A stretch of DNA of 64,000 nt. It comes from Nitrospirota bacterium (GTDB taxonomy: Bacteria; Nitrospirota; Nitrospiria; Nitrospirales; Nitrospiraceae). The notes beneath the pieces were generated by a model. That model searched no databases. It saw nothing but the letters and a program-made list of their open reading frames with translations, and was not told the DNA's origin. A program made the position numbers and the translations under genes. This document shows positions 25,177 to 42,945 of the stretch, piece by piece. The stretch spans positions 2,552 to 66,551 of the forward strand of contig JACRLR010000010.1 in the NCBI GenBank assembly GCA_016219645.1, read 5' to 3'. The first letter of the stretch is position 1; every line of letters starts with the position of its first letter.

Positions 25177-25197
25177 TGGGAGTGGCGGAGACCAGGT

Positions 25198-25262
25198 GCC
25201 CTTCTTGCTCGCGGAACGCGCACGATAGGAATGTGCTCGTTCGACGCGCGCAGTAAAGGGCA
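25198..25262. repeat. Palindromic repeat, copy 1 of 3
   Basis: Contains CGCGGAACGCGCACGAT then GAATGTGCTCGTTCGACGCG. The arms GAACGCGCAC and GTGCTCGTTC form an imperfect hairpin. Near-identical copies lie at 27252-27318 and 63627-63690. Confidence 0.85.
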
Positions 25263-25299: not shown

Positions 25300-25530
25300 G
25301 AGGGGGAAGAGTGTTGGAGGTTAGAGGTTGGAGGCAAAAAGAGAGGTTGAGGCTGAGGTTACGGGGGAGAGACGAAGCCTTGAGGTTGGAGGCGGGAAGA
25401 AGGAAGAATGTCGGAGTGGTGAGGTTTGAGGCGAATGGTTTGAGGTCTGCATTTTCCGGAACGCCTCCAACCTCTAACTTCCAACCTCAAACATTCTTCC
25501 TCGCTTAACCTTAGCCTCAACCTTAACCCT
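25300..25530. repeat. Inverted heptamer/hexamer tract between gspF and gspG
   Basis: Purine arm with TTGGAGG-TTAGAGG-TTGGAGG and GGTTGAGG, then the complementary arm (CCTCCAACCTCTAAC and CTTAACCTTAGCC) up to 25530. With the palindromic repeat it fills the 374-bp spacer. No gene. Confidence 0.8.
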
Positions 25531-25550
25531 ATGCTAACTGGAGGTGTTCG

Positions 25551-26102
25551 ATGAGCGATAGAGAGCTGGTTGAGAATGCGCAGTTGCTTTTGGATAAGGA
25601 GCGCAGGTTTCTGAATTCCCACCACTCACCACTCACCACTCACTACTTACGCAATGTTCGTGGATTTACGTTCATCGAGATTATGGTCGTGGTGGCCATT
25701 CTCGCGATCCTTGCCGCCCTGGTCATCCCTCGCATCATGGGGCGAACAGACGATGCCAAGCGGACAGCGGCTAAAGTTCAAATCCGGAATATCGAAGGGG
25801 CCTTGCAGCTCTACAAGCTGGATAACGGTGTCTATCCTTCGACTGAACAGGGGTTGAAAGCCCTCGTCGAAAAACCTTCTGTCGGAGTGATCCCGAAGAA
25901 GTGGAAGCTCGGAGGATATCTGCCGAAACTTCCGGAGGATCCTTGGCAGAATCCGTATAAGTATGTGAGCCCCAGTCAGAAACGCACCCCTGCTGGCACG
26001 CCTCTCGGGGAGTACGAAATCATGTCTCTGGGAACCGATGGCGAAGTCGGCGGCGAAGGAATCAATGCCGATATCACGAACTTAAATCTGGATAAAGACT
26101 AG
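25551..26102 (+). CDS. gspG: Major pseudopilin GspG with a repeat-encoded leader
   Basis: 183 aa. Prepilin cleavage site G|FTFIEIMVVVAILAILAALV with Glu at +5, then the GspG body (YKLDNGVYPSTEQGLKALVE, PEDPWQNPYKY) with the calcium-site region near the end. GGAGG precedes the ATG at 25551. The leader is about 37 residues instead of the usual 6-10, and residues 23-33 (SHHSPLTTHYL) are read from a heptamer run of CACTCAC type. PilD-type peptidase should still cut at VRG|F. Confidence 0.93.
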   Translation: MSDRELVENAQLLLDKERRFLNSHHSPLTTHYLRNVRGFTFIEIMVVVAILAILAALVIPRIMGRTDDAKRTAAKVQIRNIEGALQLYKLDNGVYPSTEQGLKALVEKPSVGVIPKKWKLGGYLPKLPEDPWQNPYKYVSPSQKRTPAGTPLGEYEIMSLGTDGEVGGEGINADITNLNLDKD

Positions 26103-26240
26103 CTAATGAACGTGAGGCGTAAGGCGTGAGGGGTGAGGCGCGCGAGGACCGGGGGTCCGAAGTTCGAGGTTCTTGGAACTTCGTTTCACGCCTTACGCCT
26201 CACGCCTCACGCCTCACCCCTTACCCCTTACGAGCTTCGG
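26103..26240. repeat. ACGCCTC heptamer dyad across the gspG/gspH junction
   Basis: Purine arm GTGAGGCGTAAGGCGTGAGG at 26110-26137, pyrimidine arm ACGCCTTACGCCTCACGCC and onward at 26188-26233. The second arm lies inside the gspH reading frame. The arms are close complements and could sequester the gspH start. Confidence 0.85.
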
Positions 26241-26779
26241 CAGGTTTCACCATCATCGAAATCATCATTGTGCTCTTTTTGCTCGTCGGGTTGCTGGGCA
26301 TCGTTCTGCCCCGCATTTCACTGGAGGAGACTCTTGGCTCAGTCGGCCGGAAAATGGTCGGGAATGTGCGGTCGCTTCAACACCTGGCCATGTCGACTCA
26401 GAAGACGGTCCACCTCTATGTCGACATCGATCGCGGCATCTATTGGTCGATGATTCTGGAGGGGAACCAGGAAAAAGTTCCGGGCGACCCTGCCTGGCTC
26501 ACACCCTTGACACTCCCGGACACGATTCGCATTTCCGATATCCTCGTCAGCCAGGGAAAAAAGGAATCCGGCCGGGTCGATGTCTTTTTCTATCCCACTG
26601 GACGAATCGATACGGCGACGATGCATTTGAGAAATGATCGCAATGAAATTCTGGCCATTGCCATCGAGCCTGTCACAGGAGCGATCCGCATGAGTGATGA
26701 ACGGATCGAGCCCCCCAAATTCCTCGTCATTCCCGACCGTGTGAGGGCCTTGCTCAAGACGCCGGCGCCTGGTGTGTAA
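26126..26779 (+). CDS. gspH: Pseudopilin GspH with a repeat-encoded leader
   Basis: 217 aa from a GTG at 26126 (start uncertain). Prepilin site G|FTIIEIIIVLFLLVGLLGIV with Glu at +5; the body fits minor pseudopilin GspH. The 46-residue stretch before the cleavage site is a translation of ACGCCTC/CGTGAGG heptamers (VSRLTPHASRLTPYPLR), so the leader has been replaced or extended by repeat DNA. No unambiguous ribosome site is seen. Confidence 0.85.
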   Translation: MRGEAREDRGSEVRGSWNFVSRLTPHASRLTPYPLRASAGFTIIEIIIVLFLLVGLLGIVLPRISLEETLGSVGRKMVGNVRSLQHLAMSTQKTVHLYVDIDRGIYWSMILEGNQEKVPGDPAWLTPLTLPDTIRISDILVSQGKKESGRVDVFFYPTGRIDTATMHLRNDRNEILAIAIEPVTGAIRMSDERIEPPKFLVIPDRVRALLKTPAPGV

Positions 26780-26825
26780 TCCCGTCAACGCATAGAATGC
26801 TGTGTCACCTCGAGCGGTGTTTCCT

Positions 26826-27230
26826 ATGGACAATGAACGCGGCTTTACATTAATGGAAGTCTTGATCGCGCTCTCCATTCTTGCGCTGGCGTTGCCGATC
26901 CTGTTGGGACTTCGCAATTTTGACCTTGACCTCCATGCAAGAGCCAAGGAACTCACGACTGCCACGATCCTCGCGCAGGAAAAGTTGGCCGAGACGGAAC
27001 TGGGCGCGGTCCTTCCTGTCGGAGAAACACGTGGCGAGTTTCTGCCGACGCCGCTGGGATCGCTACCGACAGCCGCGATCACCAACCGCCCTGCGAATTA
27101 TCGATGGAAGCGCATTGTCTCCCCCACGCCGTTGCAGATGGTGCGGGAAGTGAAGGTTCAAGTCATTTGGCCGAGAGGTGCAACGGAAGAGATGGTCGAG
27201 GTGAGTACCTATGTCTTCTCAACGAACTAG
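26826..27230 (+). CDS. gspI: Minor pseudopilin GspI
   Basis: 134 aa from ATG 26826 with a canonical six-residue leader: MDNERG|FTLMEVLIALSILALALPIL, Glu at +5. The body (ILAQEKLAETELGAVLP, then MVREVKVQVIW) is typical. Minor pseudopilin of the tip complex with GspJ and GspK. Its normal leader contrasts with those of gspG, gspH and gspJ. Confidence 0.93.
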   Translation: MDNERGFTLMEVLIALSILALALPILLGLRNFDLDLHARAKELTTATILAQEKLAETELGAVLPVGETRGEFLPTPLGSLPTAAITNRPANYRWKRIVSPTPLQMVREVKVQVIWPRGATEEMVEVSTYVFSTN

Positions 27231-27251
27231 CAGGAAGAGGGCAGCCTGGTC

Positions 27252-27318
27252 GTCCTCCTGCTCGCGGAACGCGCACGATCAGAATGTGCTCGTTCGACGC
27301 GCGCAATCGAGGATCGAC
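27252..27318. repeat. Palindromic repeat, copy 2 of 3
   Basis: CTCGCGGAACGCGCACGATC then AGAATGTGCTCGTTCGACGC. Same hairpin as at 25198-25262, here between gspI and gspJ. It is followed by TTGGAGG/GTGGAGG heptamers and GGTTGA hexamers to 27480. Confidence 0.85.
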
Positions 27319-27481
27319 CAGGCCACCCTTGAAGGGTAATAGCGTTGGAGGTCTGAGGGTGGAGGGTGGAGGCGGCCTGAAGAAAGGCTGAGGTTGAGGT
27401 TGAGTGGTGGGGAAGGAGAAGTGCGGTTGGAGGCGATTTGGGAAGGGAAATGGGAAGGTTGAGGTTGAGGCTCAGGTTGAA

Positions 27482-28123
27482 ATGAAGAAAGTCAGATCTT
27501 TGCTCAACCTTGACCTTAACCTCAGCCTGCACTCTCAGGGCGGGTTCACCCTGATCGAGGTTCTCCTGGCGGTCTCTCTGGTCGCCTTGATGGCGACCTT
27601 GGTTTTCGGGTCGCTCTATGTCACCACGAGCGCCATCGATGTGGCGCGAGCGAATTCCGCCAATGAACAGATTGTCCGCAGCACCATGCGTGTCATGATC
27701 GATGAATTGTCGGTCGCCAAGGAATCCCCTGCAGGCCGTTGGATGGGAGTCAACGGCCTGTTCGACGGTCAGCCTGCCGACTCTGTCGCGTTTCTCACGG
27801 TGGGCCAGTTTCGAGGGTCTGACTCGGCGAAGGACAGCGAACTGGTTCGTATCGTCTACACCAGAGAAGGCGACCTCCTGCTTCGATTCGTGCGCAAGAA
27901 TCTCTACGGTCTCACGGATGAATCTATCGAGCGGGTGGAGTTGGCCCGCAAGGTCAAAGGATTCAATGTGCGCTATTACGACGGCAAGGCCAATCTGTGG
28001 GTGGATGAGTGGAATGGCGCTGTGCGCGGCGTCCCTAAAGCGCTGTTGCTTGAGCTGATGCTGCAACAAGAGAACGAGGAGCTTCAGACCATACGCCAGT
28101 GGGTGACGGTGGGGGCGCCATGA
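27482..28123 (+). CDS. gspJ: Minor pseudopilin GspJ with a repeat-encoded leader
   Basis: 213 aa from ATG 27482 (a GTG at 27404 is also in frame). Leader MKKVRSLLNLDLNLSLHSQG, then G|FTLIEVLLAVSLVALMATLV with Glu at +5. The LLNLDLNLSL part of the leader is a reading of CTCAACCTTGACCTTAACC hexamers, so it is about twice the usual length. Body as in GspJ (IVRSTMRVMIDELSVAKE). The stop overlaps gspN by 4 bp. Confidence 0.9.
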   Translation: MKKVRSLLNLDLNLSLHSQGGFTLIEVLLAVSLVALMATLVFGSLYVTTSAIDVARANSANEQIVRSTMRVMIDELSVAKESPAGRWMGVNGLFDGQPADSVAFLTVGQFRGSDSAKDSELVRIVYTREGDLLLRFVRKNLYGLTDESIERVELARKVKGFNVRYYDGKANLWVDEWNGAVRGVPKALLLELMLQQENEELQTIRQWVTVGAP

Positions 28124-29025: not shown

Positions 29026-29029
29026 GATG

Positions 29030-29145
29030 GTTTGTTTGGTTTATTTGGTTTGTCTGGTTGGTTTGGTTGAAGAAGACCGGTCCATGAACAAAAAAGTCTT
29101 ATCAACTAAACAAACCAAATAAACCAAACAAACCAGATAAACGAG
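29030..29145. repeat. Period-9 dyad between gspN and gspL
   Basis: Left arm GTTTGTTTG-GTTTATTTG-GTTTGTCTG, right arm ACTAAACAA-ACCAAATAA-ACCAAACAA. Near-complementary arms around about 40 bp fill the 127-bp spacer. Confidence 0.85.
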
Positions 29146-42847: not shown

Positions 42848-42945
42848 TCCGGTTCATCTGGTTTGTTTGGTTCATCTGGTTTATTTGGTGCTTCGAACGA
42901 AATAAACCAAACAAACCAAATGAACTAAAGAAACCAGAGAGACCG
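42848..42945. repeat. Period-9 dyad between phoU and the psiE pair
   Basis: Left arm GTTCATCTG-GTTTGTTTG-GTTCATCTG-GTTTATTTG, right arm AAATAAACC-AAACAAACC-AAATGAACT. Lies between convergent genes and could act as a bidirectional terminator. Confidence 0.85.

Follow-up and report, generated by a model that had tools for sequence, protein, structure and literature searches.

Background

The G-rich heptamers (GGGNATC) of Xanthomonas and Nostoc are found after stop codons on the sense strand and before start codons on the antisense strand (PMC4692102). The repeats that we describe here from Nitrospira resemble them in having 7-nt units, usually in few copies, that lie mostly in the intergenic space between aligned genes, and the G-first order of the Nitrospira hairpins agrees with that placement. 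They differ in comprising many families (units of 6, 7 and 9 nt), in commonly being paired within one gap as the arms of long hairpins, and in having arms that enter the coding sequence of leader peptides. The TAACTGA repeats of Beggiatoaceae are also heptamers located just 5' of start codons, and the rare copies that fall in ORFs are mostly terminal in the encoded protein (PMC4679880); they consist of one fixed unit in direct repeats, whereas the Nitrospira units are variable, form inverted pairs and recur genus-wide at one gene position. Compared by description, Rickettsia palindromic elements are likewise dispersed palindromes inserted in frame in genes (reviewed in PMC10969869), but these are families of ~150 bp fused into unrelated products, whereas in Nitrospira it is mainly the arms of tandem-unit hairpins that are found, within a peptide for which cleavage is predicted. 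Tandem DNA repeats that are translated in ORFs and turn over fast are known from the amino-acid tandem repeats of Borgs (PMC9879509), which are perfect and kept in the protein, unlike the imperfect, short and predictably discarded repeats of Nitrospira.

The leader of a prepilin remains in the cytoplasm, varies in length, has Gly or Ala as its last residue and is cut off by prepilin peptidase (PMC10191384). Type IVb pilins and Streptococcus sanguinis provide leaders that, like those reported here, exceed the usual 6-10 residues and end in Gly/Ala, and a repeat-derived leader is not described in the part of that source devoted to long leaders (PMC10191384). Repeats at ORF ends, in-frame palindromes and long prepilin leaders are each known separately (PMC4679880, PMC10969869 and PMC10191384, respectively). 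In the library searched, we found neither any description of these Nitrospira repeats nor a report of repeats combined recurrently with disposable leaders, one family replacing another at a single position throughout a genus.

Here we analyse the pseudopilin genes of a type II secretion system (T2SS) operon in Nitrospira. A preliminary description of the locus had claimed that the prepilin leaders of gspG, gspH and gspJ owe their unusual length to three families of translated repeats, "tolerated or used" exactly up to the peptidase site, while gspI keeps a normal leader. In our judgement it is quite probable that disposable prepilin leaders tolerate the intrusion of intergenic repeat hairpins, subject to selection for reading frame.

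Methods

The window, the whole stretch of DNA that was analysed, comprises 64,000 nt (C10:2552-66551) of a 3.65-Mb Nitrospira genome (G000). Repeats were surveyed in 1.06 Mb of the same genome, with genes called by a simple caller of our own. The comparison set consisted of 80 Nitrospira loci and further genomes, covering about 80 related species that are mostly represented by metagenome assemblies, one genome per species. Because the scan misassigned the gspG start in some of them (L105, L135, L156, L161, L162, L169 and G033), frame at gspG was counted for starts with a strong Shine-Dalgarno (SD) sequence only. Owing to a strict motif filter, gspI was recovered from only 29 species and gspJ from only 28.

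Results and discussion

Identity of the pseudopilin genes

The operon is ordered gspE, gspF, gspG, gspH, gspI, gspJ, gspN, a gene for a PilM/PilN-type protein and gspK. GspG, the major pseudopilin, matched TIGR01710 with 162 bits (cut-off 88.85) in addition to the Pfam T2SSG and N_methyl families. The minor pseudopilins GspI and GspJ exceeded the gathering thresholds of Pfam T2SSI (25.6 bits against 25) and T2SSJ (39.6 bits against 28), respectively, and scored under the cut-offs of the NCBIfam gspI and gspJ models. GspH had no match in Pfam or NCBIfam. Its gene is placed between gspG and gspI and encodes the motif GFTIIE, and its AlphaFold model (pLDDT 84.5) has V. cholerae EpsH (2qv8, 4dq9) as top PDB matches. 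The gene names first given therefore stand, although we call this protein GspH-like from predicted fold and operon position rather than from a sequence model. All have Gly or Ala at position -1, Phe at +1, Glu at +5 and a hydrophobic helix, and the genome contains one prepilin peptidase gene (Peptidase_A24 at C18:326848). In one clade of relatives (L113, L114, L119, L123, L125, L132 and L157) the cleavage position of GspG is Ala rather than Gly (AFTFIE).

Repeat arrays in the leaders of the window

Positions of the genes, arrays and hairpins are collected in Table 1. In-frame arrays of 7-, 7- and 6-nt units precede the cleavage sites of gspG, gspH and gspJ, as first described, and each exceeded dinucleotide-model shuffles (P ~0.002, the floor of 500 shuffles); the array-free leader of gspI was confirmed as well. 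The arrays do not extend exactly up to the peptidase site but end 4-7 codons ahead of the cleaved bond.

Table 1. Features of the gspF-gspJ region, in window coordinates (a slash marks the predicted cleavage site)
Feature	Position	Strand	Remarks
REP-like palindromic element, copy 1	25192..25259	+	gspF-gspG gap; 84% identical to 27245-27312
Nested G-first hairpin arms	25313..25523	.	6-7 nt units; fill the gspF-gspG gap
Arm pairs of the gspF-gspG gap	25313-25335/25463-25485, 25401-25431/25471-25501, 25344-25372/25495-25523		
gspG SD (GGAGG) and ATG (25551)	25540..25553	+	5' of the repeat; genus-conserved
gspG prepilin leader	25551..25664	+	38 residues, ending with the Gly at the cleavage site
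C-rich heptamer array, CACTCAC type	25618..25652	+	5 units; inside the gspG leader
gspH-type conserved ATG (26106)	26106..26129	+	6 nt from the gspG stop; out of frame
G-rich heptamer 5' arm (GTGAGGC)	26112..26140	+	gspG-gspH hairpin
gspH	26126..26779	+	Sole standard in-frame start GTG 26126, within the 5' arm; mature protein encoded from 26246
C-rich heptamer 3' arm (ACGCCTC)	26186..26232	+	In gspH leader frame
gspI	26826..27230	+	Normal six-residue, repeat-free leader; site MDNERG/FTLME
Former gspJ start	27211..27339	+	ATG overlapping the gspI end; frame runs into the REP-like element and stops
REP-like palindromic element, copy 2	27245..27312	+	gspI-gspJ gap
Hexamer hairpin (GAGGTT/AACCTC)	27385..27533	+	RNA fold z = -4.9
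gspJ	27482..28123	+	ATG 27482 in the hairpin loop

The leader of gspG reads MSDRELVENAQLLLDKERRFLNSHHSPLTTHYLRNVRG/FTFIE, in which the repeat accounts for about 12 of the 38 residues and the first ~23 are unique sequence. Counted from GTG 26126, the gspH leader would have 40 residues and end in SRLTPHASRLTPYPLRASAG/FTIIE, with its array encoding SRLTPHASRLTPYPLR. The 21 residues of the gspJ leader are MKKVRSLLNLDLNLSLHSQGG/FTLIE, of which LNLDLNLSL is specified by the 3' arm of the hexamer hairpin (~27503-27528). Both the gspH and gspJ arrays are 3' arms of inverted repeats, and the predicted RNA hairpin at the gspG-gspH junction has a free energy of -74 kcal/mol (z = -6.1); the gspG array of the window has only a weak upstream pairing partner.

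Where gspH begins in the window is less evident. The conserved ATG 26106 lies out of frame, opening only seven codons (MNVRRKA*), the TGA of which overlaps GTG 26126 of the GTGAGGC array. This GTG is a candidate start of gspH in this genome.

A genome-wide system of intergenic hairpins

The arrays are not specific to leaders but are the arms of hairpins found in intergenic gaps genome-wide. In the 1.06-Mb sample, arrays of 6-9 nt units occurred at 21.8 per 10 kb of intergenic DNA and at 1.0 per 10 kb of gene bodies, with 2.4 in the first and 2.9 in the last 40 codons, compared with 0.2-0.4 per 10 kb in an order-3 Markov control. The same sample held 134 strong inverted repeats (none in a Markov-1 control). 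Among the 55 with periodic arms, 39 had 9-nt, eight 7-nt and six 6-nt units, and the G-rich (G/T-rich) arm came first in 44 and last in one of the 45 clear cases. Such hairpins, exemplified in the window by 26112-26232, 29028-29142 and 42851-42936, often fill the space from a stop codon to the next start. A preference of hairpin orientation for convergent or divergent gaps was considered and rejected, as the counts track gap length. Nor does freedom from stops explain in general why A/C-rich arms are read: this rule holds for heptamers only, and among 9-mers the G/T-rich arms are more open.

Arrays were found at the ends of several other proteins, encoding for example MNQTNKMNQINQ at one N-terminus and VKREA at one C-terminus. 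The leaders thus exemplify a broader spread of intergenic repeats into genes. Pseudopilin leaders do not generally attract repeats: of five pilin-type genes in the 1.06-Mb sample, the three that bear arrays all belong to this operon, and arrays were absent from two further prepilins on C7.

Several other features of the repeat complement were recorded. Unrelated proteins end in the first GTGAAGC or GTGAGGC units of an array, which provides the TGA stop (VKREA, GEREA; for example C18:9756-9787, C16:69385-69412 and, with a sample offset of 90000, C40:163937-163955). The GAGGTT hexamers cluster strongly in C10:541-30021 and C20:1297-61537, in contrast to heptamers and 9-mers, which occur throughout the genome. 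Two inverted repeats about 4.9 kb apart on C10 (L090:18097-18193 and L091:3014-3110) share identical 17-nt arms (GGAACGGTACCCGTGTC) and have 63-nt loops. A 60-nt probe from the REP-like element had 43 matches genome-wide; a single Y1-type transposase gene was found (C20:51681-52004). A second dispersed element, ~126 bp long with ends CAGGATGCTGAAAAAGTCCG and TTTTTGAGCCTCCTGC, had 59 matches in 1.06 Mb, of which three lay inside called genes; in L107 it is also present downstream of the gspG stop.

Reading frame and leader length across Nitrospira

The comparison with related Nitrospira that had been suggested revealed gspG and gspH leaders that are hypervariable and keep frame. The motif GGAGG-N6-ATG is conserved upstream of the gspG array, and strong-SD starts were in frame with the cleavage site in 47 of 48 species, over distances of 54-177 nt. 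At gspH, 55 of 57 species have an open, in-frame ATG within ~20 nt of the gspG stop, with 29 distinct leader lengths that range from 11 to 111 residues (MVTGHRSLESAG, of 12 residues, is among the shortest). On a tree of gspF and gspG proteins these lengths require at least 30 changes for gspG and at least 36 for gspH. As random indels keep frame in one third of cases, this conservation is strong evidence for ribosomes reading through the repeats. The dN/dS of the gspG leader is 0.56 before its last 20 codons and 0.40 within them, compared with 0.012 over codons 1-50 of the mature part. These values indicate translation of the leader under weak constraint.

Translation of the repeats nearly as far as the peptidase site has good support, at least for gspG and, in most relatives, for gspH, from SD and ATG, frame and dN/dS. 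The opposing reading, in which translation begins at non-standard codons (ATT, CTG and the like) immediately ahead of the cleavage site, upstream frames are accidental and the arrays are untranslated, draws on the gspH of the window and the gspJ of L102, which lack a conventional in-frame ATG. We regard it as highly improbable, given the SD and ATG conserved upstream, a leader dN/dS below 1 and a frame that dozens of changes in length have left intact. As a general account, such starts, which the preliminary description had set against its own reading, can be dismissed for gspG, where the frame is conserved together with the SD and ATG.

The claim that the extra length of the leaders is repeat DNA is wrong for gspG. 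An array is present in each of the three leaders, but repeat-free relatives also have gspG leaders of ~35-38 residues. Repeats are thus rejected as what lengthened the gspG leader; they inserted into leaders that had this size beforehand.

Turnover of repeats and frame accidents

Significant repeats (P <= 0.01) were present in 40 of 85 gspG leaders, 46 of 75 gspH leaders or junctions, two of 28 gspJ and none of 29 gspI. Their family, number and presence vary among close species. The gspG leader of the cultivated N. moscoviensis contains a CATCACG/CATCACC array. At the gspG-gspH junction, the 7-mer of the window is replaced by the 9-mers GCGAGACAG in G030/L101, the 9-mers GGTTTATTT in G023/L102 and another 7-mer in G018/L103. 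The tree neighbours L121 and L127 differ in this respect: a whole translated hairpin forms part of one gspH leader (38 residues) and has been lost in frame from the other, which is left with 12 residues. Both hairpin arms lie inside the prepilin leader frame in some species, and in three (L107, L115 and L175) the ~126-bp dispersed element is read in frame as gspH leader; that insert lies ahead of the predicted cleavage site and hence outside the predicted mature protein. In relatives, gspJ begins with a short leader at the ATG at the gspI end, whereas in the clade of the window inserted DNA has cut off this old start. The gspJ of L102 has no in-frame ATG, GTG or TTG after the gspI stop, and a heptamer array lies beside it.

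In G017, gspG carries an exact 7-nt insertion of one heptamer relative to four close relatives, which puts the conserved SD and ATG out of frame and leaves no standard start in frame; the gspH ATG of L160 is out of frame and adjoins a heptamer array. With a single genome per species, mostly from metagenomes, these frameshifts may be assembly errors. Such accidents show the cost side of heptamers. They would also be expected of contingency control, in which gain or loss of a heptamer shifts the pseudopilin frame and turns T2SS on or off in subpopulations: 7 nt is not a multiple of three, unit number alters frame in G017, and both the window and L160 have out-of-frame gspH ATGs beside heptamer arrays. 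Phase variation is nonetheless unlikely. The in-frame state prevails in 47 of 48 (gspG) and 55 of 57 (gspH) species, and the arrays are short, with 3-6 imperfect units, for which low slippage is therefore predicted. Moreover, 6- and 9-mer arrays, whose unit number cannot shift the frame, occupy the same sites, and a single assembly per species is a snapshot from which switching cannot be read. We would give a similarly low probability to a specific heptamer switch for type II secretion, in which GTGA in the G-rich arm may allow low-level restart and populations would be mixed.

A different possibility is that the repeat-encoded leader, or the mRNA hairpin at the start, modulates translation or the proportion of major to minor pseudopilins. 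The RNA hairpins are strong (z = -6.1 and -4.9), with the gspJ start in the loop of one and the gspH start in an arm of the other, and in a minority of species (for example L122, L128 and L109) the gspG array pairs with a G-rich array just 5' of the SD (overall P = 0.009 by permutation). A leader dN/dS below 1 may reflect a function of the leader and is a counterpoint to pure tolerance. The mean own rank in the pairing test was, however, 0.53, with such pairing lacking in most species, and we rejected the idea that the gspG array always pairs around the start with an upstream arm. About half of the gspG leaders are array-free, arrays are replaced or deleted freely, and the same hairpins stand at unrelated genes. 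Such a function is rather unlikely in our view. Of the two alternatives first offered for the repeats, "tolerated" fits better than "used", given families that turn over beside a mature start that scarcely changes.

Proposed mechanism

Our preferred reading remains tolerance by disposable leaders. Tandem-unit hairpins of 6, 7 or 9 nt, with the G/T-rich arm 5' and the A/C-rich arm 3', occupy intergenic gaps throughout this genome. Where a hairpin comes to lie partly or wholly past the start codon, as at the gspF-gspG, gspG-gspH and gspI-gspJ gaps, its 3' arm would be translated into the leader. This leader would stay in the cytoplasm and then be removed by prepilin peptidase, and its length and sequence would therefore be nearly free, given frame, Gly/Ala at the cut and the helix. 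The leader may thus serve as a sink for repeats, with gains, losses and replacements filtered by selection for frame. The arrays, their intergenic character across the genome, their turnover, the conserved upstream starts and the kept frame are shown by sequence and comparison; we infer synthesis of the protein from those starts and complete removal of the leader.

Conclusions

Hairpins of tandem units with a fixed G-first order make up a repeat system of Nitrospira that seems not to have been described before. The gspG of G017 is a concrete locus bearing on phase variation of secretion in nitrifiers. For class III signal peptides, the pseudopilins of one genus indicate almost no limit on leader length, from 12 to more than 100 residues, under a strict frame. 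The operon provides a comparative case of non-coding repeat DNA turned protein-coding, apparently cost-free because the encoded peptide is removed.
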